This document shows, in pieces, positions 20,207 to 40,721 of a stretch of 64,000 bases of DNA. The notes beneath the pieces are model-generated. The model was given only the letters and a program-made list of their open reading frames with translations. It made no database searches and was not told the origin of the DNA. The translations under genes and the position numbers were made by a program. How positions within the stretch are numbered: the stretch's first letter is position 1; each line of letters starts with the position of its first letter. This stretch comes from Streptomyces celluloflavus. Its GTDB lineage: Bacteria > Actinomycetota > Actinomycetes > Streptomycetales > Streptomycetaceae. Location: positions 1 through 64,000 of the forward strand of contig JOEL01000060.1 of assembly GCA_000720995.1 (NCBI GenBank), read 5' to 3'.

Positions 20207-20451
20207 GCAGCACAGCCCCATTGCGGCCGACACACTCGTAACACCTGAACCACTGCGGGCACGGATACGGGCACAGGTACGACGCCGGTCGGCAGTCACC
20301 GTCGGGGTGGCTGCCGACCGCGCGAGGGGGTGTGGGGGTGAGCGCCGAGTGAAGCGCTCGCCTGACCCCGGGGCAGATGTGATCACTTGCAGCCATCTTC
20401 TTTCGAACAATGCTCTTTTTCGGAACACCGATCACCGGCGGGGGCCCAACC

Positions 20452-23400
20452 ATGTCCAATACGCCTATGAATCAGGATCGCCCCGCGCCCGGGGCGCCCT
20501 TCGATCACCTGTCCGTCGCCGCACGCCTGGCCTGGGGCAAGTACGAGCGGCGGACCGATGAATGGCTGCCATTGTGGAGACACATGGCGGACAGCGCTGC
20601 GGTCGCGGGGAAATTGTGGGACGAGTGGGTTCCCGGCAACGTCAAGGCGCTCGTCGCCGAGGTGCTGCCGGGCGGGGCGGACGACGCGCGCCGGGTCGCG
20701 GTCTACCTTGCGTGTGTACATGACATAGGTAAGTGCTCGCCCGCCTTCGCCTGCCAGGTGGACGGCCTCTCGGACCGTATGCGTGCAGCGGGCCTGGATA
20801 TGCCGTATCAGAAGCAGTTCGGCACCGATCGGCGCATGGCACCGCACGGACTGGCCGGTCAACTGCTGCTCCAGGAGTGGCTCGCCGAGCAATTCGGGTG
20901 GAGCGGCAGGGCCTCCGGGCAGTTCGCCGTCGTGGCCGGCGGGCACCACGGGACGCCCCCGGACCACCAGCAGATCCATGACCTCCGCCTGCATCCCCGC
21001 TTGCTCCGCACCCCGGGGGCGAGCGAGAGCAACTGGCGTGCGGTGCAGTACGAGTTACTGGATGCCTGCGCGCGGGCCGCCGGGGTGGCGGACCGGTTCC
21101 CGCACTGGCGGTCCGTGCGCCTGCCGCAACCGGTGCAGGTGGTGCTGACCGCTGTGGTGATCGTCTCCGACTGGATAGCCAGTTCGGCCGAGTTGTTTCC
21201 GTACGACCCGTCCTCGTGGTCACAGCCGGACGGGTCCGGAGAGGCACGGCGTCTCGCGGCCGCCTGGGCAGGGCTCGACCTGCCGGGGCCCTGGGTGCCG
21301 GGCGAACCAGCCGGTACCGCCGCCGAGTTGTTCACGGCCCGGTTCGATCTGCCGGACGGTGCGGTGATCAGGCCGGTGCAGGAGGCAGCCGTACGGATGG
21401 CGCGGCAGCTGCCCGCCGGCGGGCTGCTGATCATCGAAGCGCCCATGGGCGAGGGCAAGACGGAGGCGGCCTTCGCGGCGGCGGAGATCCTGGCGGCCCG
21501 GACCGGGGCCGGCGGCTGCCTGGTGGCGCTGCCGACCCGGGCCACGGGAGACGCCATGTTCCCCCGCCTGCTGAACTGGCTGGCGCACCTGCCCTCGGAC
21601 GGTCCCCGGTCCGTCGTCCTGGCCCACGCCAAGTCCGCGCTCAACGAGGTCTGGGCAGGGCTGATGCGAGCCGGCCACCGGACGATCGCCGCGGTCGAAC
21701 CGGACAGCCCGGACGCGGTCCCGCCCCCCGGACGGGCCCAGCGCTCCAGTCCCGCCGGGCTGCACGCGCACCAGTGGCTGCGGGGACGGAAGAAGGCGCT
21801 GCTCGCCTCGTTCGCCGTGGGCACCATCGACCAGGTGCTCTTCGCGGGACTCAAGAGCCGGCATCTGGCGCTGCGGCACCTCGCCGTCGCGGGCAAGGTC
21901 GTCATCATCGACGAAGTCCACGCCTACGACGCCTATATGAACGCGTATCTGGACCGGGTACTGGAGTGGCTGGCCGCCTACCGGGTGCCCGTGGTGCTGC
22001 TCTCCGCGACCCTGCCCGCGGGCCGGCGGCGGGAGCTGGCCGCGGCGTACGCCGGGGAGGCCGACGCCGGGCACGCCAGGAGCGGGGACGACGGTGATGC
22101 GCTGGACGTACCCGACGACGCCTATCCGCTGATCACCGCCGTGGCACCCGGCGCCCCGGTTCTGGCGGCGCGGCCGCCGGCCGCCTCGGGACGCCGTACC
22201 GAGGTCGCGCTGGAGCGGCTGGACGACGAACTGGCCTCCCTGGTGCGTCGGCTGGACGACGAACTGCGCGACGGGGGCTGCGCGTTGGTGGTGCGCAATA
22301 CCGTCGACCGGGTGCTGGAGGCGGCCGAGCGGCTGCGGGACCACTTCGGCGCGGACGCGGTGACCGTGGCGCACTCCCGGTTCCTGGCGGCCGACCGGGC
22401 CCGCAAGGACACCGAACTGCGGACGCGTTTCGGCCCCGGCGGCGAGCGCCCCGCCGGCCCGCACATCGTCGTGGCCAGCCAGGTGGTCGAACAGTCGCTG
22501 GACATCGACTTCGATCTGCTGGTCACCGATCTGGCTCCGGTGGACCTCGTCCTCCAGCGCATGGGACGGCTGCACCGCCATCCGCGCCCGCGCCCGGTCC
22601 GGCTGGCGCAGGCCCGCTGCCTCGTGACCGGCGTGGACTGGCAGGCCGACCCGCCCCGGCCCGTACCCGGCTCACTCGGCGTCTACCAGGGGCCGCACAC
22701 CCTGCTGCGGGCGCTCGCCGTCCTCGGCCCGCACCTGGACGGTGCGCCGCTCGTACTGCCGGACCACATCAGCCCACTGGTCCAGAGCGCCTACGGGGAC
22801 GGGCCGGTCGGCCCCGAGCACTGGGCCACCGACCTGGCCGACAGCCGTCACGCGTATCTGACCCGGCTCGCCGGGAAACGGGAGCGCGCCGAGGTGTTCC
22901 GGCTCGGCCCCGTACGCCGGGCGGGGCGGCCGGTATTCGGCTGGCTGGACGCGAACGCCGGAGACGTGGACGACAGCCGCACCGGCCGGGCCCAGGTACG
23001 GGACAGCGACGAGAGCCTGGAGGTCCTGGTCGTCCAACGGCAGCAGGACGGCGGGCTGACCACCGTCGGCTGGCTGGACGGCGGGCGGGGCGGTCTGGCG
23101 CTGCCGGAGCATGCCCCGCCGACGCGCCGGGCCGCCGAGGCCGTCGCCGCGAGCGCGCTGACCCTGCCCTGGCAGTTCTCCAAGCCGTGGGCGATCGACC
23201 GGACCATCGCAGAGCTGGAAAGATTCCTGGTTCCGGCCTGGCAGGTGAAGGAATGTCCTTGGCTGGCAGGCGAGTTGCTGCTGGTTCTCGACGAGGATTG
23301 TCAGACCCGTCTGTCAGGCTTCGACCTCCGATACAGCCGTGCCGACGGACTCGTGGTGACACCTGTCGGCGAACAGGAGGCAAAGGTGCTGAATCCCCCG

Positions 23401-25194
23401 CCGCCGCCCTTACCGTCCCCCTCGTTCGACCTGATCTCCCGGCCCTGGCTGCCGGCGCAGCGCCTGGACGGGACGACGGTGGAGCTGTCGCTGCTGGAGG
23501 TCTTCGCGCGGGCGGACGAGCTGCGGCGCCTGGTGGGTGATCTGCCCACGCAAGAATTCGCGCTGTTCAGGTTGCTGCTGGCGATCCTCCACGACGCGGT
23601 GGAGGGGCCCGTGGAGCTGGCGGACTGGGAGGAACTGTGGGAGTCGGCGGACCCCTTCGCGGCCGTACCGGGCTACCTCGACCGGCACCGCGAAAGGTTC
23701 GACCTACTCGCCGCGGAGCGGCCGTTCTTCCAGGTGGCGGGGTTGCATACGGCGAAGAACGAGGTCGCCTCGCTGAACCGCATCGTCGCCGACGTGCCGA
23801 ACGGCGAACCGTTCTTCGCCATGCGCCGGCCCAGCGTGGACCGGCTAGGTCTCGCCGAAGCGGCCCGGTGGCTGGTGCACGCACACGCCTTCGACCCGTC
23901 CGGCATCAAGTCCGGGATGACGGGCGACGATCGGGCCAAGGGCGGCAAGGTCTACCCGCAGGGCGTCGGCTGGGCCGGCAATCTCGGCGGCGTCCTCGCG
24001 GAGGGCCGCACCCTGCGCGACACGCTGCTGCTGAACCTGATCGCGACGGACGAGGACATCCTGACGACGGACCGGAAGCAGGATCTGCCGGCCTGGCGCC
24101 GCGATCCGCCCGGTCCCGGACCGTCTCCGGCGGACCCGTCCATCCGCCGTCCCACCGGCCCGCGTGACCTCTACACCTGGCAGTCCCGGCGCCTGCTGCT
24201 GCACACCGAGGACGACACCGTCACCGGGGTCGTCCTCGGCTACGGAGATCCGCTCGCCCCGCACGACCGCTGGATGTCGGAGCCCATGACGGGCTGGCGG
24301 CGCAGCCCGGCGCAGGAGAAGAAGCAGGGACGTCCCTTGGTCTACCTGCCGCAGCAGCATGATCCCGCCCGCGCCGCCTGGCGGGGCCTGGCGAGCCTGC
24401 TCTTCGCCCAGCAGTCGGACACCGGCGATACCGGGCGGGGGACCGCGCAGAGCCTGCCGCCGGGCGTGGTGAAGTGGCTCGCCCTGCTCACCACCGAGGG
24501 GGTGCTCCCCGAGGACTCGCTCATCCGTACCCGCCTCATCGGGGCGGTGTACGGGACCCAGCAGTCCGTGGTGGACGAGGTGGTCGACGACGGGGTCACA
24601 CTGCCTGTCGTACTGCTCCACGAGGAGCACCCGGTCTACGGCGCGACGGCGGTCGCCGCGGTCGCGGACGCCGAACAGGGGGTGACCGCGCTGGGACATC
24701 TCGCGGGCAATCTGGCGCGCGCCACCGGCTCGGAGCCATCCCCGGCCACTGCGGCCGCCCGGGACCTGGGGTTCGGGGCACTCGACGGTCCGTACCGGCA
24801 GTGGCTGCGGGCACTGGGAGAGCATGCCGACCCGGATGCGGCTCGGGCCGAATGGCGGACCACCGCGCACCGCGTCATCCGCGGTCTCGGCCGGCAGCTG
24901 CTCGACACCGCGGGACCGGCCGCCGCGGAGGGGCGGATCACCGAGGTACCCGGAATCGGCAGACGGTGGGTCGATGACTCCCGCGCCGACCTGTGGTTCC
25001 GGAGCCGCCTGAACAAGGTGCTGCCAACAGCGGAACCACGCCCTCGGGAGCAGCCGCAGGGGCCTTCTCCGGAACAGCCTTCGGGGCGTTCCCCGGGACA
25101 GGAGGCCGTCTCACCGGACTCGCCCCCGGACCCGCCGTCCGCAGAGCCCCCGGACACCCACCCCGACGAGAACCCCCCGGAGCCTCCCGTATGA
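20452..25194 (+). CDS. cas3-cse1: Cas3-Cse1 (Cas3-Cas8e/CasA) fusion protein, type I-E CRISPR
   Basis: The 1580-residue protein joins the nuclease-helicase and the large Cascade subunit. An HD nuclease part has H44 (HMADSAA) and H91-D92 (CVHDIGK). The helicase has Walker A MGEGKTEAAF (about 333-342), DEVHAYDAY (about 486), LLSATLP and QRMGRLHRH. A Cse1 domain starts near residue 985 (FDLISRPWLPAQRLDG) and runs to about 1525, followed by a Pro/Ser-rich tail. Cse1 recognises the PAM and recruits Cas3; natural fusions of this type are known in Streptomyces relatives. ATG 20452 follows a GGCGGGGG stretch; an in-frame ATG at 20410 is less likely. It overlaps cse2 by 4 bp. Confidence 0.92.
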   Translation: MSNTPMNQDRPAPGAPFDHLSVAARLAWGKYERRTDEWLPLWRHMADSAAVAGKLWDEWVPGNVKALVAEVLPGGADDARRVAVYLACVHDIGKCSPAFACQVDGLSDRMRAAGLDMPYQKQFGTDRRMAPHGLAGQLLLQEWLAEQFGWSGRASGQFAVVAGGHHGTPPDHQQIHDLRLHPRLLRTPGASESNWRAVQYELLDACARAAGVADRFPHWRSVRLPQPVQVVLTAVVIVSDWIASSAELFPYDPSSWSQPDGSGEARRLAAAWAGLDLPGPWVPGEPAGTAAELFTARFDLPDGAVIRPVQEAAVRMARQLPAGGLLIIEAPMGEGKTEAAFAAAEILAARTGAGGCLVALPTRATGDAMFPRLLNWLAHLPSDGPRSVVLAHAKSALNEVWAGLMRAGHRTIAAVEPDSPDAVPPPGRAQRSSPAGLHAHQWLRGRKKALLASFAVGTIDQVLFAGLKSRHLALRHLAVAGKVVIIDEVHAYDAYMNAYLDRVLEWLAAYRVPVVLLSATLPAGRRRELAAAYAGEADAGHARSGDDGDALDVPDDAYPLITAVAPGAPVLAARPPAASGRRTEVALERLDDELASLVRRLDDELRDGGCALVVRNTVDRVLEAAERLRDHFGADAVTVAHSRFLAADRARKDTELRTRFGPGGERPAGPHIVVASQVVEQSLDIDFDLLVTDLAPVDLVLQRMGRLHRHPRPRPVRLAQARCLVTGVDWQADPPRPVPGSLGVYQGPHTLLRALAVLGPHLDGAPLVLPDHISPLVQSAYGDGPVGPEHWATDLADSRHAYLTRLAGKRERAEVFRLGPVRRAGRPVFGWLDANAGDVDDSRTGRAQVRDSDESLEVLVVQRQQDGGLTTVGWLDGGRGGLALPEHAPPTRRAAEAVAASALTLPWQFSKPWAIDRTIAELERFLVPAWQVKECPWLAGELLLVLDEDCQTRLSGFDLRYSRADGLVVTPVGEQEAKVLNPPPPPLPSPSFDLISRPWLPAQRLDGTTVELSLLEVFARADELRRLVGDLPTQEFALFRLLLAILHDAVEGPVELADWEELWESADPFAAVPGYLDRHRERFDLLAAERPFFQVAGLHTAKNEVASLNRIVADVPNGEPFFAMRRPSVDRLGLAEAARWLVHAHAFDPSGIKSGMTGDDRAKGGKVYPQGVGWAGNLGGVLAEGRTLRDTLLLNLIATDEDILTTDRKQDLPAWRRDPPGPGPSPADPSIRRPTGPRDLYTWQSRRLLLHTEDDTVTGVVLGYGDPLAPHDRWMSEPMTGWRRSPAQEKKQGRPLVYLPQQHDPARAAWRGLASLLFAQQSDTGDTGRGTAQSLPPGVVKWLALLTTEGVLPEDSLIRTRLIGAVYGTQQSVVDEVVDDGVTLPVVLLHEEHPVYGATAVAAVADAEQGVTALGHLAGNLARATGSEPSPATAAARDLGFGALDGPYRQWLRALGEHADPDAARAEWRTTAHRVIRGLGRQLLDTAGPAAAEGRITEVPGIGRRWVDDSRADLWFRSRLNKVLPTAEPRPREQPQGPSPEQPSGRSPGQEAVSPDSPPDPPSAEPPDTHPDENPPEPPV

Positions 25195-25946
25195 CCAGCA
25201 CCGCTCAACGGCCCGAACCCGCGCGGCCGGCCGGTTCCGCCCCGTCCGCCCCCCGCCGTTCCCTCGCTCCGGCCGGACAGGCCACCGCCCGCTGCATCCT
25301 GCGGCTCCAGCACCAGTACCGCCAGGACAACCCCGCCGCCGTGTCGAACCTCGCCAGGCTGCGGCGCGGTGCCGGACGGACCGCACACACGGTCCAGGAC
25401 CACTGGGGGCTCGGCGGGCTGGAGGAGCTGGCCGACATCCTCGCGGACGGCCGGACCCCCGTACGCCGTGAGCATGCCGAAGAGGCGGTATATCTGGCCG
25501 TGACGCTCTGGGCCCTCCACCAGCAGTCCGTCCGGGACGGCGATATGCACCGCCCCAAGTGGACCTTGGGACGCGCGGTCCGCACCCTCATGCAGGAGAA
25601 GAGCGGGGCCGGCCCTGACGACGAACTGAACGACCCGCTCCGCAAACGGCTCGTCCGTGTCGGTACCGCCGAATCGATCGAATCGATTGCCGTACGGCTA
25701 CGGGAAATCGTCCTGCTGCTCCGGGGCGCGCAGGTGCCGCTCGACTACGGGCGACTGGCCGACCAGCTCTACCGCTGGCAATCGCGGACGGAACGCGCCG
25801 CCGTACGGCGGGAGTGGGGCCGGGAATTCCATCTCGCGCCGCGCACCGGCAAAAGCGCGTCACCTGGCAAGGAAGGCCGAAACGACGTCATCGACCCGTC
25901 CTTGGACCCTGACGGGGAAGACGACGACTACGGCCCCGGGGAGTGA
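25191..25946 (+). CDS. cse2: Cse2/CasB, Cascade small subunit
   Basis: The 251-residue basic, helical protein has the Cse2 pattern: NPAAVSNLARLRRGAG, ALHQQSVRDGDMHRPKWTLGRAVRTLM, RKRLVRVGTAESIESIAVRLREIVLLLRGAQVPLDYGRLADQLYRWQ. Two copies form the belly of type I-E Cascade and hold the displaced DNA strand. ATG 25191 overlaps the cas3-cse1 stop (ATGA), indicating translational coupling. The Asp/Gly-rich C-terminal extension (about 215-251) is dispensable-looking. There is a 63-bp gap to cas7e. Confidence 0.9.
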   Translation: MTSTAQRPEPARPAGSAPSAPRRSLAPAGQATARCILRLQHQYRQDNPAAVSNLARLRRGAGRTAHTVQDHWGLGGLEELADILADGRTPVRREHAEEAVYLAVTLWALHQQSVRDGDMHRPKWTLGRAVRTLMQEKSGAGPDDELNDPLRKRLVRVGTAESIESIAVRLREIVLLLRGAQVPLDYGRLADQLYRWQSRTERAAVRREWGREFHLAPRTGKSASPGKEGRNDVIDPSLDPDGEDDDYGPGE

Positions 25947-26009
25947 ACTCCCCCACCGACCATGAATTCTTTATCTCCCGCACTGACCGCGAAAAGGAAC
26001 TGAGCGTTC

Positions 26010-27221
26010 GTGACCAGGACCATTCTCGATATCCATATCCTCCAGACCGTTCCGCCGAGCAACCTCAACCGGGACGACACCGGAACTCCCAAATCGGCCG
26101 TCTACGGCGGTGTGCGGCGGGCCCGCGTCTCCAGTCAGGCGTGGAAACGCGCCACGCGCCGGGCGTTCGTCGACCTGCTCGACACATCCGAGCTGGGTGT
26201 CCGGACGAAGAAGGTCGCCGAGGTACTGGCCGAGCGCATTACCGCCCTCGACCCGTCGCTGTCCAAGACCGCGGCGTGGGAGCTCGCCGCGGAGACCATG
26301 CGCGCGGCGACCGGCTCCAAGATCGAGGTCCCCAAGCGCAAGACCAAGGACAAGGAAAAGGAAGGCGGGGAGAGCGAAACCGCTCCTGAATCCGCGTATT
26401 TGATGTTCCTGAGCGGGCGCCAGATCAACGCTCTCGCCGGACTGGCGGTCGAGGGCGCAGAGGACGGAGACCTCAATTCACTCAAGGAGTTCCTCAAGGT
26501 AAAGGAGAACAAGGCGCGCGCCCGGCAGTTGGCCGACACCGGGCACTCGGTGGACATCGCCCTTTTCGGCCGTATGGTCGCCGACTCGACCGACCTCAAT
26601 GTGGATGCGGCCGCCCAGGTGGCGCACGCACTGAGCGTTCACCCGGTGGAAGTGGAGTCGGACTACTTCACCGCCGTCGACGACAGGAACACCGACGCCG
26701 AAATGGGCGCCGGCATGATCGGCTCCGTTGATTTCAACTCGGCGACCCTCTACCGCTACGCCGCGGTCGACGTCGACCGGCTCCAGGAGAACCTCGGCGC
26801 CGGCCTGCGCGAGGACCGGTCGTCCGCCGAACCCACCCGGCGTGCCGTGGCCGCCTTCCTCGAAGGTTTCATCACCTCGCTGCCCACCGGAAAGATCAAC
26901 ACCTTCGGCAACCACACACTGCCCGCCGCGGTGGTCGTCAAGCTCCGTTCCCGGCGTCCGATCAGCTTCGTCGCCGCGTTCGAGGAGCCGGTAGCGGCAG
27001 GCGAGGCGGGCGGCTTCCTGCGGCAGAGCTGCGAACAGCTCGCGAAGCACGTACCCGATCTGGAGAGCAAGTACGGGCTCACCGCCGGCGGGCAGAGCTG
27101 GGTGCTGCGGGTCGGCGAGGAGACCGAGGCGCTCGCCGCCCTCGGCACCGAGGTGACGCTGCCCGGCCTGGTGGCGGCCGTGGGGGACGCCGTGGCCGCC
27201 CGGCTGGAGCCCGAGGCATGA
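26010..27221 (+). CDS. cas7: Cas7e/Cse4/CasC, Cascade backbone subunit
   Basis: The 403-residue protein begins TILDIHILQTVPPSNLNRDDTGTPKSAVYGGVRRARVSSQAWKRATRRAF, the signature start of Cas7e. GSVDFNSATLYRYAAVDVDRL and LEGFITSLPTGKINTFGNHTLP are also typical. Six copies coat the crRNA spacer. A Lys/Glu-rich insert lies around 110-125. The GTG at 26010 has AAGGAA about 10 bases upstream. It overlaps cas5 by 4 bp. Confidence 0.93.
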   Translation: MTRTILDIHILQTVPPSNLNRDDTGTPKSAVYGGVRRARVSSQAWKRATRRAFVDLLDTSELGVRTKKVAEVLAERITALDPSLSKTAAWELAAETMRAATGSKIEVPKRKTKDKEKEGGESETAPESAYLMFLSGRQINALAGLAVEGAEDGDLNSLKEFLKVKENKARARQLADTGHSVDIALFGRMVADSTDLNVDAAAQVAHALSVHPVEVESDYFTAVDDRNTDAEMGAGMIGSVDFNSATLYRYAAVDVDRLQENLGAGLREDRSSAEPTRRAVAAFLEGFITSLPTGKINTFGNHTLPAAVVVKLRSRRPISFVAAFEEPVAAGEAGGFLRQSCEQLAKHVPDLESKYGLTAGGQSWVLRVGEETEALAALGTEVTLPGLVAAVGDAVAARLEPEA

Positions 27222-27979
27222 GCGTGCTGCTGCTGCGGCTCGCGGGGCCCCTCCAGGCGTGGGGGTCCGCGGCCCGCTTCACCCGCCGCACCACCGAGAA
27301 CGCGCCCACGAAGAGCGGCGTCCTCGGACTGCTAGCCGCGGCCCAGGGCCGTGCCCGGGACGCGGACCTCTCCGACCTGGCGGCTCTGGAGTTCGGCGTA
27401 CGGATCGATCAGCCCGGTGTCCGGCTCCGCGATTTCCAGACCGCGCACCACGCCGACTCGGGCAAGGCCATGCCGTTGTCGGAACGCTTCTATCTCGCGG
27501 ACGCGGTCTTCGTGGCGGGCGTGGCGGGTGATCCCAGCCTTCTCCACACGCTGTACGAAGCTCTGTTGGAGCCGGTCTTCCTGCCCTATCTCGGACGCCG
27601 CTCCTGTCCCCCCGCGCAGCCGGTGACGATATCGGAGCCGCTGAACACCACCCTCGAAGCCGCCTTGCGGGAAGCGGCATGGGAGGCATCCGCGCGGCAC
27701 CGGAAGCGATACACCAACTCCTGGCGCAATGGCCATGGTTCACACCAGGGCCCGCCGCAGCTGGAGCTGCTGCTCGACTGCCCCGCCGACGAAACCCCGG
27801 ACACCACACTGCGCGACCTCCCGCTCAGTTTCGACCCGCGCCATCGCCAGTACGGACTGCGCGGCATCCGCGGAACGCAGACAACACCGCCCCCGTCATC
27901 ACCACCCGCACCCTCGTCCCCGCCACCATTCCACGATCCGACCACCGTGCTGCTGCCCGCCGCACCGAGGACCACCTGA
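27218..27979 (+). CDS. cas5: Cas5e/CasD, Cascade crRNA 5'-handle-binding subunit
   Basis: The 253-residue protein starts SVLLLRLAGPLQAWGSAARFTRRTTENAPTKSGVLGLLAAA, the Cas5e family hallmark, and has RLRDFQTAHHADSGKAMPLSERFYLADAVFV. It caps the crRNA 5' end and contacts Cse1. The last 40 residues are Pro/Ser-rich and probably unstructured. ATG 27218 overlaps the cas7 stop and its own stop overlaps the cas6e start by one base. Confidence 0.92.
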   Translation: MSVLLLRLAGPLQAWGSAARFTRRTTENAPTKSGVLGLLAAAQGRARDADLSDLAALEFGVRIDQPGVRLRDFQTAHHADSGKAMPLSERFYLADAVFVAGVAGDPSLLHTLYEALLEPVFLPYLGRRSCPPAQPVTISEPLNTTLEAALREAAWEASARHRKRYTNSWRNGHGSHQGPPQLELLLDCPADETPDTTLRDLPLSFDPRHRQYGLRGIRGTQTTPPPSSPPAPSSPPPFHDPTTVLLPAAPRTT

Positions 27980-28695
27980 TGTACCTGACCCGCTTCCGCG
28001 TCAACACCGCGCGATCCGAGGCCCGGCGGCTGCTCGGCTCCCCCCACCTCGTGCACGGCGCGGTGAACATGTCCTTCTCCACGCCCCCGCCCCGGGACGG
28101 ATCGGGCCCCCGGGTACTGTGGCGAGTCGACCGCAACTCACCCGCCGAGACCCTGCTGTTCATCGCCGGTCCGGCCCGCCCCGACCTGACCCATCTGGTC
28201 GAGCAGGCAGGCTGGCCGGCCGCGGACGGCCCCGGCTGGACGACGTTCGCCTACGGCACGTTCCTCACCGCACTCGCCAAGGGAGACACCTGGGGATTCC
28301 GGCTCACGGCGAACCCCCTGCACCACATCCGCCACCCGGACGACAAGGAGGGCGCGCGCACCAAGCGGGCCGCCCACCAGACCCCGTACCACCAGGCGCG
28401 GTGGCTGCTGGAGCGGCAGCAGCGCGCGGGATTCGAGGTGGTACGGAAACCGGTGGAACGCCGGCTCCTGGAACGGGGCGACGAGCATGAACTGATCGTC
28501 CGCGACCAGCGCCCCTTGCAGTTCCGCAGGCCCCCGTCGAAGTCCGGTCGCGAGGACGTCCGCTTCACCAAGGTCACCTTCGACGGCCGGCTCCGCATCA
28601 CGGACCCCGACACCTTCCGCCGCACGCTCACCCACGGCCTGGGCAAGGCCAAGGCGTACGGCTGCGGTCTGATGACGCTCGCCCCGGTGCGGTGA
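27979..28695 (+). CDS. cas6e: Cas6e/CasE, crRNA-processing endoribonuclease
   Basis: The 238-residue protein has the tandem ferredoxin-like Cas6e layout. SPHLVHGAVNMSF places His26 at the catalytic position known in Cas6e enzymes, with His23 where many family members have Tyr. The glycine-rich loop GLGKAKAYGCGLMTLAP lies at the C-terminus. It cuts each repeat hairpin to release crRNA and stays bound. The repeats in this window contain the CCCCGC/GCGGGG stem it would bind. ATG 27979 shares one base with the cas5 stop. Confidence 0.92.
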   Translation: MYLTRFRVNTARSEARRLLGSPHLVHGAVNMSFSTPPPRDGSGPRVLWRVDRNSPAETLLFIAGPARPDLTHLVEQAGWPAADGPGWTTFAYGTFLTALAKGDTWGFRLTANPLHHIRHPDDKEGARTKRAAHQTPYHQARWLLERQQRAGFEVVRKPVERRLLERGDEHELIVRDQRPLQFRRPPSKSGREDVRFTKVTFDGRLRITDPDTFRRTLTHGLGKAKAYGCGLMTLAPVR

Positions 28696-28698
28696 CCG

Positions 28699-29649
28699 AT
28701 GAGCACCGTCAACCGTCGGGGTGCCTCCTCGCCCCGTGACCTCGCCCGGATCGGCGACCGTCTCTCCTTCGTCTATCTGGAGCGGTGCACCGTCCATCGC
28801 GACTCCCACGCGATCACGGCGGAGGACGCGGACGGAGTCACGCACATCCCGTCCGCCACCATCGGCACACTCCTGCTCGGCCCTGGGACTCGTATCACCC
28901 ACCAGGCGATGGCCGTCCTCGGTGACTCCGGCGCGGGTGTGGCGTGGGTCGGCGAGCACGGGGTGCGCTACTACGCGGGTGGCCGGGCGCTGACCCGCTC
29001 GTCGGGCCTGGTCGAGGCCCAGGCCACCGCGTGGGCGAACCGGCGCACCCGGCTGGAGGTGGCCCGCGCCATGTACCGCCTGCGCTTCCCGGACGAGGAC
29101 CCCGCCGGCCGTACTCGGCAGGACCTCCTCCTCATGGAGGGCCGGCGTCTGAAGGACTGCTACCGGCACGAGTCGGCCCGCACCGGAGTTCCCTGGCGCC
29201 GCCGCGAGTACCACCGCGACGACTTCTCGGCCGGCGACGCACCGAACCAGGGCGTCACCGCGGCGGCACAGTGCATGTACGGAATCGCCCACGCCGTTGT
29301 CGCGGCCCTCGGCTGTTCCCCCGGTCTGGGCTTCGTCCACTCCGGCCACGAGCGGTCGTTCGTCCTCGACGTGGCCGACCTGTACAAGACCGAGATCGCC
29401 ATCCCGGCAGCGTTCGACGCGGCGGCGGAGGGCGTGGAGGACGTCGCGGCGCGTACCCGCCGCATGCTCCGGGACCGCATCAACGAGACCGGCCTGCTCG
29501 ACCGCTGCGTCCGGGACATCAAGGACCTGCTCTCCTACGACGGGACGCGCGACACGGCCGACCCGTCCCAGGACCGCATGACCCTTCAGTCCGACGGCGA
29601 CCGACACGTCGAGGGTGGCCGCAACTACGGCGACGAGATCATCTGGTGA
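28699..29649 (+). CDS. cas1: Cas1e, spacer-integration endonuclease
   Basis: The 316-residue protein has the Cas1 metal-binding residues at expected places: E147 (LLLMEGRR), H214 and D224 (GFVHSGHERSFVLDVADLYK). With Cas2 it inserts new spacers at the leader end. The basic N-terminal beta region (about 1-90) and helical catalytic region are both complete, so adaptation appears functional. The start lies 3 bp after cas6e and the stop overlaps cas2. Confidence 0.95.
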   Translation: MSTVNRRGASSPRDLARIGDRLSFVYLERCTVHRDSHAITAEDADGVTHIPSATIGTLLLGPGTRITHQAMAVLGDSGAGVAWVGEHGVRYYAGGRALTRSSGLVEAQATAWANRRTRLEVARAMYRLRFPDEDPAGRTRQDLLLMEGRRLKDCYRHESARTGVPWRRREYHRDDFSAGDAPNQGVTAAAQCMYGIAHAVVAALGCSPGLGFVHSGHERSFVLDVADLYKTEIAIPAAFDAAAEGVEDVAARTRRMLRDRINETGLLDRCVRDIKDLLSYDGTRDTADPSQDRMTLQSDGDRHVEGGRNYGDEIIW

Positions 29650-30023
29650 CCGTCATCGTCCTCACCAACTGCCCGGTCGCCCTGCGCGGTCTGCTCACCC
29701 GCTGGCTCCTGGAGATCTCCCCGGGCGTCTTCCTCGGCGCCCCCTCCACCCGCATCCGCGAGTCCCTGTGGAAGGAAGTCCGCCAATACGCGGGCCAGGG
29801 CCGCGCCCTGCTCGCCTACCAGACCAACAACGAACAGGGCTACACATTCGAAACCCACGACCACTCATGGCACCCCACCGACCACGAGGGCCTGACATTG
29901 ATCCACCGCCCGTCCCCGAAGACTCAACGCCCGGCGCCACGGGCATCGGATGGGCCGACGCCGGATGTTCCACGCCAGGGCTGGAGCAAGGCGTCCAAGA
30001 GGCGGAAGTATGGGGGGCGGTAG
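29646..30023 (+). CDS. cas2: Cas2e, adaptation complex structural subunit
   Basis: The 125-residue protein begins VTVIVLTNCPVALRGLLTRWLLEISPGVFLG and contains RALLAYQTNNEQGYTFETHDHSWHPTDHEGLTLI, characteristic of Cas2e. It dimerises between two Cas1 dimers. The C-terminal tail (about 95-125) is basic and longer than the minimum. GTG 29646 overlaps the cas1 stop by 4 bp. The CRISPR leader follows directly. Confidence 0.93.
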   Translation: MTVIVLTNCPVALRGLLTRWLLEISPGVFLGAPSTRIRESLWKEVRQYAGQGRALLAYQTNNEQGYTFETHDHSWHPTDHEGLTLIHRPSPKTQRPAPRASDGPTPDVPRQGWSKASKRRKYGGR

Positions 30024-30168: not shown

Positions 30169-32499
30169 GTGGTCCCCGCGGGTGCGGGGGTGGTCCCCGG
30201 AGGCGGAGGGGCGGCGGCTGACAGTCGGTGTGGTCCCCGCGGGTGCGGGGGTGGTCCCTGAGCGGCGAACAGCAGCTTGCAGGCGCCGCGGTGGTCCCCG
30301 CGGGTGCGGGGGTGGTCCCCCGGCGCTGCGCACCGCCGAGGGCCGCCAGGCGTGGTCCCCGCGGGTGCGGGGGTGGTCCCTTGGCGTCCGGCTGAGTGCC
30401 GAAGGTCTCGGCGTGGTCCCCGCGGGTGCGGGGGTGGTCCCCTGGGCACCGCGTGCAGCGTCCGCTGCTACGAGTGGTCCCCGCGGGTGCGGGGGTGGTC
30501 CCAAGTGCTGTCGGCGAGTCGTCGATAAAGCCACGTGGTCCCCGCGGGTGCGGGGGTGGTCCCCACGCGGGGCGTTCACCCGGCTGCGGGCTGGTGTGGT
30601 CCCCGCGGGTGCGGGGGTGGTCCCGCGTCGCAGCTGAACAGCCCGCCGATGTCGTCGTGGTCCCCGCGGGTGCGGGGGTGGTCCCAAGGCGGCAGTGCGG
30701 GAATCTTCCAGAGCGAGTGGTCCCCGCGGGTGCGGGGGTGGTCCCAGGCTGTGCAGCAGCTCGAATTGACGATGTGAGTGGTCCCCGCGGGTGCGGGGGT
30801 GGTCCCAGGCTGATCGGGAGGGTGGTCCCCGCGGGTGCGGGGGTGGTCCCGAGTCCAGGGCCGCGCAGTGCGACGCGCAGGCGTGGTCCCCGCGGGTGCG
30901 GGGGTGGTCCCCCGAAGCGAAGAATACGTGGCGTAGACCGTGAGTGGTCCCCGCGGGTGCGGGGGTGGTCCCAGGCGTCCCGGCGTCAGCTCCGGGTCCC
31001 TGATGTGGTCCCCGCGGGTGCGGGGGTGGTCCCGGTTACTCGGGTGAGGTCATGTGGAACATCGGGTGGTCCCCGCGGGTGCGGGGGTGGTCCCGCACAG
31101 CCTCGGCCAGGTGCTCAATGCCGTCCGTGGTCCCCGCGGGTGCGGGGGTGGTCCCGCCCAGGATCCCGACCGGCGGGCTTGAGCGACGTGGTCCCCGCGG
31201 GTGCGGGGGTGGTCCCTCGCCGGGCTCGGCGTGCTTGTCTGACCGAGGGTGGTCCCCGCGGGTGCGGGGGTGGTCCCGGTTCGCCGCCAATTGGCGGCAC
31301 GGCGCTCGGGTGGTCCCCGCGGGTGCGGGGGTGGTCCCGACCCGTATATCGAGGACCCGGCGCGCTCGCCGTGGTCCCCGCGGGTGCGGGGGTGGTCCCC
31401 GAGGGCCTCCCCCGCGCCCGGGGTGATCTGGGTGGTCCCCGCGGGTGCGGGGGTGGTCCCGGCCCGCTCGCCGTCATCGACTGCGACACCGAGTGGTCCC
31501 CGCGGGTGCGGGGGTGGTCCCTGGCGGCCCTCGCCGGGGCCGGCCGACTCGACGTGGTCCCCGCGGGTGCGGGGGTGGTCCCCCCGAGCGCGACACACAC
31601 CCGTGGATCCGGTTGTGGTCCCCGCGGGTGCGGGGGTGGTCCCGCCACCGCCGAGATCGCGCTCCTGGTGGAGGGGTGGTCCCCGCGGGTGCGGGGGTGG
31701 TCCCGGCTGCGGGTGGCGCACTGACTGCTGCTCTCGGGTGGTCCCCGCGGGTGCGGGGGTGGTCCCAAGGCCGACCAGGACGGCCCCAAGAAGACCATGT
31801 GGTCCCCGCGGGTGCGGGGGTGGTCCCATGGCCATGGCCATGGCGCGCCCCACCACCACGTGGTCCCCGCGGGTGCGGGGGTGGTCCCACTGCCCCGCGC
31901 GAGCGCGCTCCGCGGCCGGAGTGGTCCCCGCGGGTGCGGGGGTGGTCCCGAAGTCGAGGCCGCCGATCTCCACCCGGAGACGTGGTCCCCGCGGGTGCGG
32001 GGGTGGTCCCCACCGGCGTCCCCACCGGCTTCGAGGACCTCGGTGGTCCCCGCGGGTGCGGGGGTGGTCCCTGAACTCAGACCAGATCCCGCGGTTCCGG
32101 TTTGTGGTCCCCGCGGGTGCGGGGGTGGTCCCATCCCGGCAGCCGCGATCGCGGCCGCCGCGTGGTGGTCCCCGCGGGTGCGGGGGTGGTCCCGCGATGG
32201 TGGCCGGGGCGAGTTCAGACGATTCAGTGGTCCCCGCGGGTACGGGGGTGGTCCCGCCCAGTAGGACACCCACCGGTGGGCACCAGGGTGGTCCCCGCGG
32301 GTGCGGGGGTGGTCCCGTGACCCAGGACCCATCAGGCAGCACGGTGTAGTGGTCCCCGCGGGTGCGGGGGTGGTCCCGTGGGGATGGGCGCCATTGCCCT
32401 GCTGATCGTGTGGTCCCCGCGGGTGCGGGGGTGGTCCCAACAGCAACACCCGGGGCCGGGGAGGGGTTCGGTGGTCCCCGCGGGTGCGGGGGTGGTCCC
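30169..32499 (+). CRISPR. Type I-E CRISPR array, 39 repeats and 38 spacers (leader-proximal part)
   Basis: The 29-bp repeat begins GTGGTCCCCGCGGG and ends with GGTGGTCCC; CCCCGC and GCGGGG form the hairpin. Repeats start at 30169 and then every 61 bp with few exceptions: one 60-bp step (30657 to 30717), two 62-bp steps (31676 to 31738, 32165 to 32227) and one 44-bp step (30778 to 30822, a 15-bp spacer). All repeats appear identical except the one at 32227, which has GTACGGGG in place of GTGCGGGG. Both ends of the repeat carry GTGGTCCC, an 8-bp direct repeat that favours recombination. The array continues beyond a group II intron at 34960. Confidence 0.97.
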
Positions 32500-33059
32500 C
32501 ATCATGAAGCTACGCAAGCACGGCGTGCGCCGTGAGGCGCTTCGTTGTATCCCCGACTCAATCGGGAGGAACTTGGAGGAATGTTTCTGGGTCACCTGAC
32601 TTACCTGGACGCGAAAGCGCGAGGGGACAAGAGCATGCCAGGGAAGCGGCGGCCGTCTGGAGGCGTCCAGGGCGGGGTGCCGCAAGACCCGCACGATAAG
32701 GCCAAGGCTGGATTGCTTGAAGCCCAATCTCCGGTGGTGAAAGTGCGCACCCGTCGGAATGACGTCTGAAACCGACGTCGCGTCATGCCCGGCCGTGAAC
32801 CGTGAAGCCGAGGCAACCTCCATGACGCGAAACGCCGCCCAACGAGGGTGGTTAAGGAGATGAGTGGGCGGCCTACGTCGTGCTCGATACGTACAACGGA
32901 GACGTACCACGGGATCGCCTACGGGGCGCGAGCCCTATGGCGACGGAGGTGTCGTAGTAGTCGCAGGAGTAACGACCTGCCAAGGAGGCCGGGAAAGCCG
33001 GGACCACAGGGCGAAGGGCACCAGGTGATCGAGATGTTCGGCGAAGGGAAGCATGCGCA

Positions 33060-34850
33060 ATGCAGAGCGCTGAAACGGTGCTGAGCGTCCTCCGCAAGCG
33101 CGGTGAGAGAGGTCTGCCGGTTGAAAGGCTGTACCGGCAGTTATTCAGCACGGAGTTGTTCCTGCTGGCTTACGGGCGCATCTACGCCAACAAGGGTGCG
33201 ATGACTCCCGGGGCCACAGGGGAAACCGTGGACGGCATGTCCCTGGAGAAGATCCAGAAGATCATCGAATCGCTGCGCAATGAGCGTTATCGGTGGTCTC
33301 CGGCACGGCGTGTCTATATCGAGAAGAAAGGGTCAGCCAAGAAGCGCCCGCTAGGATTGCCGACTTGGTCGGACAAGCTCGTGGCCGAAGTGGTTCGCCT
33401 GCTCCTTGAGGCGTACTACGACGTCCAGTTCTCCGACCATTCCCATGGCTTCCGTCCCGGCCGGGGCTGTCACACCGCGCTGAGCGAGGTGGAACGGTAC
33501 TGGACGGGAACCCATTGGTTCGTCGAGGGCGATATCTCCGACTGCTTCGGCAGCCTTGACCATGGCGTCATGCTGTCGATCCTGTCGGAGAAAGTCCACG
33601 ACGGCCGTTTCCTCCGGCTGATCGGGCACATGCTCAAGGCTGGGTATCTGGAGGACTGGCGCTGGAATGCGACACTCAGCGGTGCTCCGCAGGGTGGCGT
33701 GGCCAGTCCGATCCTGTCGAACATCTACCTTGACCGGCTCGACCAGTTCGTTGAACAGTCGTTGCTGCCCGAATACAACCACGGCCGGCGTCGACAGCCG
33801 AACCGGGCGTACCGACGGCTGGAGCACTGGATCCAAGGGGCGAGACGGCGCGGTTGTCGGAAATCGGTGCGGGAGCTTGAGCCTCGCCGCCGAGCCCTGC
33901 CGAGCCAAGACCCCAACGATCCGGACTACCGGCGGCTTCGGTATGTCCGCTATGCCGACGACTGGCTGCTGGGGTTCGCCGGGCCCAGGCACGAGGCAGA
34001 GGAGATCAAGTCGAAGATCCGGAGGTTCCTGCGAGAGGAACTCAAGCTGGAACTCTCCGAACCCAAGACGTTGATTACACACGCCACCAGCCAGGCGGCG
34101 CACTTCCTCGGCTACGACATCAAGTCCCAGTACGCCAATGACAAGATCACCCGGAATCGCCGGGCAGTCAATGGTTCCATTGGGCTGTTCGTACCCAGGC
34201 AGGCGATCAGGCAGCGATGTGCGCTCTACATGAGCAAGGGAAAACCGGCGCTGAGAGGCTCGGTTATGCGTGACGATGACTTCACCATCGTCGCGAAGTA
34301 CCAGTCCGAGTTTCAAGGTGTCGTTCAGTACTACCTCCTGGCCCAGGACGTCTTTCGCCTGGGCAGGCTCCGATGGGTCATGGAGACTTCGATGCTGAAG
34401 ACCCTGGCCGGGAAACACCGCAGCACGGTCACGAAGACGGCTCGAAAGTACAAGAGACTGATCGAGACGCCAGACGGGCCGCGCACATGTTTCCAGGTCA
34501 CGGTTGAACGTGATCGAGGGAGGAAGCCGCTGGTCGCCCGCTTCGGCGGGATCCCGCTCAAACGACAGCGTACAGCGACCCTCACCGATCTCAAGCCCGT
34601 CATGGCCAGCAGCAAACGCAACGAGTTGATCCACCGGCTCCTCGCGGAATGCTGTGAAATCTGTGAATCCCGGACGCAGTTGGAAGTGCACCACGTCCGG
34701 AAGCTCGCTGATCTCAACCGGCCAGGGCGGCGGGAGAAACCCGCGTGGGTTCACCTCATGGCCATGCGACGGCGAAAAACCTTGGTGATCTGCCGCCGCT
34801 GTCATGAAGACATTCACGCTGGACGGCCCACCGCTGTTAAACGGACGTGA
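33060..34850 (+). CDS. ltrA: Group II intron-encoded reverse transcriptase/maturase/HNH endonuclease
   Basis: The 596-residue protein contains the RT blocks KKRPLGLPTWSDKLV, SDHSHGFRPGRGCHTAL, EGDISDCFGSLDH, GAPQGGVASPILSNIYLD and the active-site RYADDWLLGF, then a maturase X region. A C-terminal zinc-type HNH domain has CEICESRTQLEVHHV and VICRRCHEDIH. It helps the intron RNA fold and splice, then copies it into DNA at new sites. All catalytic residues are present and the frame is intact, so the intron may be active. ATG 33060 has GAAGGGAAG just upstream. It ends 9 bp before domain V. Confidence 0.93.
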   Translation: MQSAETVLSVLRKRGERGLPVERLYRQLFSTELFLLAYGRIYANKGAMTPGATGETVDGMSLEKIQKIIESLRNERYRWSPARRVYIEKKGSAKKRPLGLPTWSDKLVAEVVRLLLEAYYDVQFSDHSHGFRPGRGCHTALSEVERYWTGTHWFVEGDISDCFGSLDHGVMLSILSEKVHDGRFLRLIGHMLKAGYLEDWRWNATLSGAPQGGVASPILSNIYLDRLDQFVEQSLLPEYNHGRRRQPNRAYRRLEHWIQGARRRGCRKSVRELEPRRRALPSQDPNDPDYRRLRYVRYADDWLLGFAGPRHEAEEIKSKIRRFLREELKLELSEPKTLITHATSQAAHFLGYDIKSQYANDKITRNRRAVNGSIGLFVPRQAIRQRCALYMSKGKPALRGSVMRDDDFTIVAKYQSEFQGVVQYYLLAQDVFRLGRLRWVMETSMLKTLAGKHRSTVTKTARKYKRLIETPDGPRTCFQVTVERDRGRKPLVARFGGIPLKRQRTATLTDLKPVMASSKRNELIHRLLAECCEICESRTQLEVHHVRKLADLNRPGRREKPAWVHLMAMRRRKTLVICRRCHEDIHAGRPTAVKRT

Positions 34851-34858
34851 TCACTGGA

Positions 34859-34892
34859 GAGCGGAATGCGGGGAAACTCGCCCGTTCCGTTC
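34859..34892 (+). ncRNA. Group II intron domain V (catalytic RNA hairpin)
   Basis: The 34-nt element starts GAGCGGAATGCGGGGAAAC and ends CGTTCCGTTC. It has the GAGC start, GAAA tetraloop and two-nucleotide bulge characteristic of domain V. Domain VI follows at about 34893-34952. Confidence 0.85.
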
Positions 34893-34959
34893 GGGAAGGG
34901 GCCGTCGGAAAAGGACCCGCGCCACGGGCACCTCGTCGGCGGCCTACTTCACTCATGGG

Positions 34960-35070
34960 GTGGTCCCCGCGGGTGCGGGGGTGGTCCCCGCGGGTGCGGG
35001 GGTGGTCCGGAGTTACCCGGGGCCGGCGCAGCCGGGACAGCGTGGTCCCCGCGGATGCGGGGGTGCTCCC
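34960..35070 (+). CRISPR. Leader-distal end of the CRISPR array after the intron (three repeats, one spacer, one collapsed unit)
   Basis: Repeats lie at 34960-34988, 34981-35009 and 35042-35070. The first two overlap by the shared GTGGTCCC end sequence, so a whole spacer has been lost between them. The third is degenerate (GCGGATGCGG and GTGCTCCC), the usual decay at the old end of an array. The spacer between the second and third is 32 bp. Confidence 0.9.
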
Positions 35071-35147: not shown

Positions 35148-36115
35148 TCAGATGGTGAAGCGCCATGAATCGTCGGGGGTCAGCAGGTGGCTGCCGTCGG
35201 GGGAGAGTTCCGCGCGCATCGAGTGCAGAGAGAACCTGTTGTTCTCCTCCCACCTACTGCGGACACGTTCCAGCTCATCCCACAGTCGGCGGGGGCCGCC
35301 CTGGTGCACCAGGGGCGACGTTCCGTCCTCGGCTCGGGCCCATGCCCCGTCCGCAGCGAGCAACCACACCACGCGCCGCCCGTCGTCCGGGTAGGTAGCC
35401 GCGCGGGTCTCGACCCCGGGCGTGTCCAGCTCGAACAGCCACCGGAGCGGCCATTCCTGCCACAGGTCGGGAATGGATCCCTCGGGGGGCCGCACGTCCT
35501 CGCCCTCCCGTACGCGGGCAGTCACGAACACGTCGTTCAGCTTCGCCGGGTAGTCCGCTTCCTGCCGGGTCTCCATGAATGTGGCCGGGTCGGGCTGGAC
35601 GGTGCCGCGTGCGATGCCGTCCGGTCCCATGTCTGCCGTGATCAGCAGTGCGGTGTGGGCAATCGTCGTGACCAGCCTTCCGCCGGGACGCAGCGCGCGG
35701 AGCCACGACGCAGGGACGGGCCGTACGGAAACGGTCGCCATGATGCGGTCGTACTCGGTATCGGGGAGTTCCCCGGTGGCGTCGACGGCTGCCAAGCGCG
35801 GCGTGCGCCCGAACTCGGCGAGGCGCGTACGGGCGGCCTCGACCAGGTACGGGTCCACGTCCCGGCGTGCGTGGGGCCGACGCGGGTCACCAGCGTTTCG
35901 TCCGTGTACGCGGCGTGCAGCCGCTCCGGGGAGTCCTCGGCGAGGTCTACCAACTCCCATTCCTGGGTCGGGCTGTTCGGGATGCGCTGCCACCAGCGCG
36001 GGACGAGCTTGTGACGGGGGGTGTTGCTGACGGCTTCATGCCATCCGGGCGCGTTCGCGGTCACCTTGTCGGCGAGCGCGTGAGCGGCGTTGGCCCATGC
36101 GGGCGCTTCGGTCAT
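35148..36115 (-). pseudogene. Methyltransferase of ATP-grasp RiPP system, broken by internal deletion
   Basis: The N-terminal part (from ATG 36115: MTEAPAWANAAHALADKV ... LVTRVGPTHA) and the C-terminal part (DVDPYLVEAARTRLAEF ... SWRFTI, ending at 35148) are in different frames. They are joined near 35860-35885. In this PIMT-like (protein-isoaspartate methyltransferase-like) family the missing middle carries the glycine-rich SAM-binding motif I, roughly 60-75 residues. The product cannot bind SAM, so the gene is dead unless a sequencing error is involved. Its start overlaps the ATP-grasp stop by 4 bp. Intact relatives methylate an Asp of the modified peptide, which can lead to aspartimide formation. 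Confidence 0.8.
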
Positions 36116-37059
36116 GCGGTCTCTCCTTGTAGTGCGTCTGCCATGGCTTCAACAAGCGGCACCCCGGCTTTGACAGCGAGCCAATGCCACTGACCATTGG
36201 GGTTCACTTCGAAGAAGACCCAACGGCCGTCCGGGGTGACGGCGAAGTCCAGCGCGCCGAAGAACAGGCCGAGTTCGTCCATGAGCCGGCGGACCCCCTT
36301 CTCCACCTGCGACGGCATGTCCACCACCTCGTATGTATGGGACCGGTAGTCCGTCCGCCAGTCGAGCTGTGCGGCTTCGCTGTCCGTGTGGATGGCGACG
36401 GGGAACATATGGCCCCCGATCACGGTCAAGCGCACTTCATACGCCTTGGCCACGCGCTCTTGGAACAGGTGGGCGGTGCCGCTCACTCCGTCGTCCACCT
36501 GGTCCGCGGAGACGAGTGCCACGGGGAGGAACTGCCGCTTCCCTTCGGGGCCAAGCACGCCACCGCCGAGCCCCTTGTAGACAACCGTGTCGTCGCCCAT
36601 GAACGTACGTGCGTGCGCGAGGTCCGACGTGATCACGGAGCGGGGTACGTCCAACCCGCAGCGAGCAGCGACCGCGAGTTGAACGGGCTTGTAGTTCGCG
36701 GCGGCATCCTTGCTCGGATGGTTGACCCACCGGACAGGCAACGACCCGAGCACGCCGAGCAGTCCCGAGCGCGCTTCCGAGACCGCGAGGGCGCGAGCGT
36801 GTCCGGGCCAGTCGTCGGGGGTCCGGAACTCGTTGGGGCGTCGCCACCACACCGACTTGACGGATTCCAGACGGACCGTACGGGAGCCGGCGAGGGAACC
36901 CGTCCAGCCGTCCCCGGTGAGGGAGACGGCCAGACGGGAAGCGGTCGGGAAGTCGGCAGTATCGAACCTGACGACCTGTTCACCGCGTTTCACCAGCTCC
37001 TCAACCACTGCGTCGGCCGTGAGGTCGTCCCGGCCGGTCAGGATGAGGATGGATTGCAT
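36112..37059 (-). CDS. ATP-grasp RiPP maturase (graspetide synthetase-like, SAV_5884 type)
   Basis: The 315-residue protein begins MQSILILTGRDDLTADAVVEELVKRGEQVVRFDTADFP and contains WWRRPNEF, WVNHPSKDAAANYKPVQLAVAARCGLDVPRSVITSD, an ATP-grasp core with VVYKGLGGG, and the metal-binding end FFGALDFAVTPDGRWVFFEVNPNGQWHWL. It forms ester or amide links between side chains of the precursor. The start lies 1 bp after the precursor stop and the end overlaps the methyltransferase, giving a precursor-ligase-methyltransferase operon. All active-site motifs seem intact even though the methyltransferase is broken. Confidence 0.88.
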   Translation of the reverse strand: MQSILILTGRDDLTADAVVEELVKRGEQVVRFDTADFPTASRLAVSLTGDGWTGSLAGSRTVRLESVKSVWWRRPNEFRTPDDWPGHARALAVSEARSGLLGVLGSLPVRWVNHPSKDAAANYKPVQLAVAARCGLDVPRSVITSDLAHARTFMGDDTVVYKGLGGGVLGPEGKRQFLPVALVSADQVDDGVSGTAHLFQERVAKAYEVRLTVIGGHMFPVAIHTDSEAAQLDWRTDYRSHTYEVVDMPSQVEKGVRRLMDELGLFFGALDFAVTPDGRWVFFEVNPNGQWHWLAVKAGVPLVEAMADALQGETA

Positions 37060-37060
37060 G

Positions 37061-37297
37061 TCAGTACAGGTCGGTTCCGGAGTCGGAGCCGGGGCCCGAG
37101 CCGTCGCCGTTGCTGGTCTCGGTCTGCGTCTCGGGCATCTCGGCCGTGATGGCGTGCCACGGGTTGCCCTCGGCGGAGACGTTGAGCTGAAGCGCATCGC
37201 TGTACGTGATGACGGGCGCTTCGGTGTTCGTCGGAGCCGGTGACACCAGGTGCCGGACCCCGAACGGGACGGCGGGCGTAGCAGTTGTCGTGCTCAT
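37061..37297 (-). CDS. ATP-grasp-modified RiPP precursor peptide
   Basis: The 78-residue peptide starts MSTTTATPAVPFGVRHLVSP, with a PFGVRHL leader motif typical of precursors for SAV_5884-type ATP-grasp enzymes, and a middle YSDALQLNVSAEGNPWHAI. The C-terminal core (about 52-78) is rich in Thr, Ser, Asp and Glu (PETQTETSNGDGSGPGSDSG) and ends TDLY, offering many donor and acceptor residues for omega-ester links. GGAGGAACGC precedes ATG 37297. The ATP-grasp gene follows after 1 bp. Cross-link pattern and cleavage site cannot be predicted. Confidence 0.8.
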   Translation of the reverse strand: MSTTTATPAVPFGVRHLVSPAPTNTEAPVITYSDALQLNVSAEGNPWHAITAEMPETQTETSNGDGSGPGSDSGTDLY

Positions 37298-40470: not shown

Positions 40471-40489
40471 CTGTCATGGGCTACGCTGC

Positions 40490-40636
40490 GAGCGTCCCGC
40501 GGGTGCGGGGGTGGTCCCGTGACGGCGGCCATGATCCCGAAACGCCACTCGTGGTCCCCGCGGATGCGGGGGTAGTCCCAGGCCCGCGAGGGGCAACCCC
40601 TCACCGCAGAGGCGGTCCCCGCGTATGCGGGGTCCC
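40490..40636 (+). CRISPR. Second CRISPR fragment: three degenerate repeats, two spacers
   Basis: Repeats start at 40490, 40551 and 40612, spaced exactly 61 bp as in the main array. The first is damaged in its first six bases but perfect after that; the second has GCGGATGCGG and GTAGTCCC changes; the third is truncated at 25 bp (GCGTATGCGGGGTCCC end). The GCGGATGCGG change also occurs in the last main-array repeat at 35042, suggesting one array split by the intervening 5.4 kb. Confidence 0.85.
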
Positions 40637-40721
40637 GACAACGCAGATATTGGGGAGCCCCAAGTGCAAGGTCCTCTATGACCGCTTCGGAACCGAGAAG
40701 CACTTGTGTGGAGGAGCGACT

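Follow-up and report, generated by a model that had tools for sequence, protein, structure and literature searches.

A group II intron lies within a spacer of a type I-E CRISPR array in Streptomyces celluloflavus and has close relatives in domain V of other group II introns

In the window, that is, the whole 64,000-nucleotide stretch of Streptomyces celluloflavus DNA analyzed here (from contig C60 of an 8.68 Mb genome), we observed a group II intron nested within a CRISPR spacer, number 39 of a type I-E array. We consider it likely that the intron arrived by off-target retrohoming, as a member of an LtrA-type lineage that enters domain V of other introns and that met here a spacer with a chance likeness to its target. 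The features of the locus, all on the forward (+) strand, are the following.

20410..30023, +, type I-E cas operon (Pfam and NCBIfam profile matches, as for the genes below)
20410-25194, +, Cas3-Cse1 fusion
within 24993-25946, +, Cse2
26010-27221, +, Cas7
27218-27979, +, Cas5
within 27679-28695, +, Cas6e
28699-29649, +, Cas1, a separate type I-E protein
29646-30023, +, Cas2, at the end of the cas operon
30169..32499, +, CRISPR array, 39 repeats 5' of the intron
32500..32524, +, 5' exon, the initial 25 nt of spacer 39
32513-32517, +, IBS2 (per-copy pairing)
32519-32524, +, IBS1 (per-copy pairing)
32525..34952, +, group II intron, 2428 bp, GUGCG...AC (ends, Rfam match, two 93% copies)
32743..32747, +, EBS2, GTGCG (40-copy covariation)
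32798, +, delta, A, pairing with the T at +1 (34953) (29 of 34 copies)
32799..32804, +, EBS1, ACCGTG (40-copy covariation)
33060..34850, +, intron-encoded protein of 596 aa with reverse transcriptase (RT), maturase and HNH domains (profile matches)
34857..34892, +, domain V (Rfam match, fold)
34895..34952, +, domain VI with a bulged A at 34946, plus the 3' end (Rfam match, fold)
34953..34959, +, 3' exon, the final 7 nt of spacer 39
34960..35070, +, distal end of the array: two overlapping repeats, one spacer, degenerate last repeat
35010-35041, +, sole full spacer 3' of the intron
35042-35070, +, degenerate last repeat

The initial annotation had placed a group II intron at these positions, starting with GTGCG and ending with domain VI and AC, and had proposed a covariance search and a search for further copies in the genome. 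The covariance search bears it out. The Rfam model RF00029 matched 34857-34952 with 61 bits (cut-off 40; E 1.5e-9) and stopped at the predicted 3' end, and the predicted fold of the last 96 nt of the intron consists of domain V and domain VI with its bulged branch A (z -3.19). Two full-length copies at 93% identity, both in one other genome, possess the same first and last bases between different flanks, which confirms both intron ends. The element thus combines 5' GUGCG and 3' AY ends, domains V and VI, an RT/maturase with HNH, and guide pairing with its flank. It stands in the sense orientation relative to the array and splits the spacer into 25 and 7 nt with no sign of target duplication or loss. 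Its excision would join 32 nt, as had been calculated, and this is the length of 34 of the 38 spacers that precede spacer 39 (31, 15, 33 and 33 nt for the other four). In the host genome we found a single intron copy at this identity, plus a relative with 70% identity across the initial 1630 bases and 65% across a later part; the intron sequence had no match in the phage records searched. Two further Rfam domain V/VI matches are present in the same genome (L048, C11:24-99; L049, C36:150160-150235), each of 54 bits with the model matched end to end, and one of them lies at a contig end.

The complete RT/maturase/HNH gene reported initially is intact. Its product matched RVT_1, Intron_maturas2 and an AI2M-like HNH domain, while the NCBIfam group II RT model TIGR04416 scored 249.7 bits, below its cut-off of 300. 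The closest solved structure is LtrA (E 6.9e-125, residues 21-585). In comparison with the 93% copy, we obtained a dN of 0.018 against a dS of 0.38 (dN/dS about 0.05), indicating that the protein was under selection until recently. No protein relatives were found among 47 candidate stretches of viral contigs.

The surrounding locus is a type I-E system, with cas3, cse1, cse2, cas7, cas5, cas6e, cas1 and cas2 together with 29-bp repeats and 32-nt spacers. At up to 3 mismatches, the repeat matched 43 times in the window, 42 times in this array and once at 40551 in a small array, and 0.00 matches were expected by chance (100 shuffles). At the distal end, the repeats 34960-34988 and 34981-35009 overlap by 8 nt without a spacer between them, and the tail after the intron is therefore limited to one full spacer. 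Other particularities were observed in this region. Cas3 (HD and helicase) and Cse1 share one reading frame of 1594 aa; the 15-nt spacer at 30807-30821 and the overlapping repeats at 34960-35009 are signs of array recombination; and a second small array of three degenerate repeats lies at 40489-40644, about 5.4 kb downstream. On the minus strand, at 35148-37197, the gene of an ATP-grasp ribosomal peptide maturase adjoins a methyltransferase that belongs to that system and has its reading frame broken into two overlapping pieces.

Since this RT gene sits in an array beside cas1 and cas2, it could be read as an adaptation component of the CRISPR system (RT-CRISPR) and not as a passing intron. 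We regard this as highly improbable. Cas1 is separate, of type I-E and without an RT fusion, and the intron occurs elsewhere outside CRISPR arrays, its close copies sitting in other introns. Moreover, among the copies whose 5' end was scanned, only the one in the window has an 18-base repeat within 300 bases upstream.

To identify the guide sequences, each 6-base segment of the first 420 intron bases was tested for pairing with the -6 to -1 flank in each of 40 copies. This set omits L002, L003, L004, L013, L014, L037, L099 and all copies lacking a long 5' part. Because L002 and L004 represent one and the same relative in the host genome, that relative is absent; L094 and L095, which repeat the flank of L008, were retained. 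The segment at 32799 stood out, with 5.18 of 6 pairs with the own flank compared to 2.59 with the flanks of other copies. The copies are related, so such counts are not independent tests. The initial annotation had put EBS1 at 32792-32797. Those bases do pair at 6 of 6 positions here, but that segment ranks next with 3.2 against 2.65, and the covariation favors 32799-32804 instead; at 32792-32797, the two nearest relatives differ from the copy studied here by one base. EBS2 paired at 4.2 of 5 positions with the own flank and 2.7 with those of others across the 40 copies. In 29 of 34 copies, against 20.5 expected, the nucleotide directly 5' of EBS1 pairs with +1, an excess that no other column reaches; this count leaves out L093, and the +1 base of L035 was set by hand. 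Copies with other targets carry matching guides (CAGATA/TATCTG, GTTGGA/TCCAAC and ACCCGA/CCGGGT); in the per-copy pairing, the row for L093 is the second, partial intron of that locus and not the domain V copy. The intron is a candidate for the group IIA/ML class, with which it was compared by the delta base directly 5' of EBS1 and its pairing with +1, and by the likeness of its protein to LtrA.

Spacer 39 pairs with the guides at 10 of 12 positions; the two failures are at -8 and, next to the splice site, at -1. Of the 123,118 positions in the window after removal of the intron, 14 reach a score of at least 10; spacer 39 is one of them, and none of the others lies in the array. This rarity indicates that guide pairing very probably directed the insertion into spacer 39. 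Scaled to the genome, about 2000 positions would score as well as the spacer, so no special attraction to CRISPR needs to be proposed.

The sites of the relatives show where such introns insert. We counted 57 distinct 5' junctions after merging identical flanks, including that of the window, and 11 of the 56 others share a single insertion point within domain V of another group II intron (L006, L009, L010, L035, L037, L080, L081, L083, L092, L093 and L097). Eight of these hosts were flagged by a folding test, and L081, L083 and L097 were added by motif. These 11 junctions are twintrons, whereas the copy in the window sits in a CRISPR spacer. The 3' flank begins with TC or TT in 10 of the 11, and with CA in L010. 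Among the other full-length copies at 81% identity or more, 5 of 5 are in domain V (L006, L035, L080, L081 and L092, with L006 and L035 sharing one genome); at 75% or more, 9 of 15 are in domain V and 6 are not, so that the lineage is not confined to domain V. Of the short or broken copies with at least 81% identity, L037 and L097 occupy domain V, unlike L129 and L130. In a tree of 38 copies, built without L094, L095 and duplicates, the CRISPR copy clustered with the domain V copies L006 and L035 (support 100/100). In S. halstedii and Streptomyces sp. YIM 121038, where the copies lie on plasmids, the annotation has an ltrA gene immediately upstream of the intron copy; as expected, this would be the gene of the host intron. 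The remaining relatives are inserted elsewhere, in some cases between conserved flanks that resemble putative transposase genes.

With the guide of the present intron, ten domain V hosts score from 8.5 to 12 and the spacer scores 10 (the site of L097 was left out because the sequence used for it was too short). The domain V target motif occurs at 38 places in the genome at one mismatch, compared to 52 for a reversed control, and is thus not enriched. The intron's own domain V (34857-34892) scores 8.5 of 12, at the low end of the occupied hosts, and this low score perhaps spares the intron from inserting into itself.

The likeness between spacer and domain V could have another origin, namely that spacer 39 was captured from a domain V, in which case the intron would have homed on target into the immune memory of another intron. 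Two host domain Vs agree with the 12 guide-paired bases of the spacer at 10 of 12 positions, and CGCAAGCACGGCTC resembles the 3' strand of a domain V. Outside these bases, however, the spacer agrees with ten host domain Vs at only 1 to 6 of 13 positions (mean 3.3, about chance), whereas the hosts agree among themselves at 5.9 of the same 13, and the upstream part of the spacer is devoid of the strand pairing with CGC that a domain V requires. Its protospacer was also not found in the phage, plasmid, viral_contigs and genome_contigs searches or in 100 relatives. A captured domain V is not supported by these comparisons, and we consider such an origin very unlikely.

Concerning these searches, the joined 32-nt spacer gave short matches in three phage and three plasmid records, none covering 80%; a degenerate exact spacer pattern was found 0 times in viral_contigs and 0 times in genome_contigs; and none of the 100 relatives carried the spacer at up to 3 mismatches. 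With the joined array end as query, matches were obtained in at least 195 of 392 genomes, with no empty site among the matches listed. Outside the host genome, the best among the matches listed was 74% identical (E 1.1e-20), and the listed matches look repeat-driven. With neither a protospacer nor an empty site at hand, we infer the insertion event from the structure.

Off-target retrohoming remains our preferred reading. The sequence itself shows the intact intron and protein, the exact ends, the sense orientation, the 32-nt length of the joined spacer, the 10 of 12 pairing and the domain V sites of the closest relatives. The proposed course would be as follows. A mobile LtrA-type group II intron, whose close lineage members home into domain V of other introns, would have encountered in the existing spacer 39 a chance near match to the target specified by EBS2, EBS1 and delta. 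It would then have entered the sense strand of the spacer by reverse splicing and reverse transcription. It would be transcribed along with the pre-crRNA, and splicing would rejoin the 25 and 7 nt.

The chances that the intron splices in vivo appear to us evenly balanced, and splicing could possibly restore the crRNA of spacer 39. In type I-E systems, Cas6e cuts within each repeat. Both exon pieces lie between the flanking Cas6e sites, and splicing before or after cutting would therefore give the same 61-nt crRNA. The mismatches at -8 and -1 may weaken splicing. A little short of an even chance, in our estimation, is that the intron is dead at this site, with no splicing, spacer 39 lost and the last spacer starved of transcript. 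The same two mismatches would fit this outcome, as would the leader-distal position, where a loss costs little. On the other hand, the ribozyme ends are complete and the protein is intact, the occupied domain V sites also mismatch their own guides, and the spacer's score of 10 falls within the range of the ten occupied sites. The initial annotation had stated that, without splicing, the repeats 3' of the intron are cut off from the leader; this is true, but only the spacer at 35010-35041 is affected, so that the cost is small. One old spacer would be lost, and 35010-35041 would stand behind 2.4 kb of intron. More tentatively, and clearly below an even chance, a crRNA made by ribozyme splicing may keep the memory readable, while invading DNA bearing the protospacer could become a further homing site for the intron, because the intron guide and the crRNA recognize the same address.

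If the intron splices, this locus would provide a natural CRISPR guide whose production depends on self-splicing of an intron, and would directly test whether one transcript can sustain both splicing and Cas6e processing. Furthermore, the relatives represent a bacterial group II lineage with repeated entries into domain V, which is the catalytic core of the introns it competes with, making intron-on-intron parasitism testable.

Several known systems can be compared with this one. In the Lactococcus intron Ll.LtrB, delta adjoins EBS1 and the target is a relaxase gene. LtrA being the closest solved protein and delta lying next to EBS1, the present intron resembles Ll.LtrB but differs in its targets. 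Mobile elements that interrupt CRISPR arrays are known. Here too the array is broken by a mobile element, but this one could be spliced out of the pre-crRNA, and its insertion produces no duplication of the target. In the literature searched, largely outside subscription journals and in part as excerpts (including PMC8547433, PMC4465626, PMC12479173, PMC6360697 and PMC8919778), we found descriptions neither of a group II intron within a CRISPR spacer nor, within the same limits, of a bacterial lineage targeting domain V. Introns inside introns, domain V included, are already known from the portions of published accounts available to us. In Thermosynechococcus, TeI3 is nested in TeI4, inserted in the ORF region of domain IV (PMC2882425); in Trichodesmium, the inner intron of a twintron lies in domain I (PMC4649490); Methanosarcina also has nested group II introns (PMC4424553), and in Thermosynechococcus and Methanosarcina such nesting is described as a way to multiply (PMC2882425; PMC4424553). 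The close relatives of the window intron likewise enter introns, but they use domain V, in contrast to TeI3 (domain IV) and the Trichodesmium inner intron (domain I), and the window copy itself uses a CRISPR spacer. A parallel in position is the psbF twintron of Euglena, in which one group II intron lies within domain V of another (PMC8393795); that account gives a single case, in a plastid, whereas the mobile lineage described here is bacterial and occupies 11 distinct sites in domain V.
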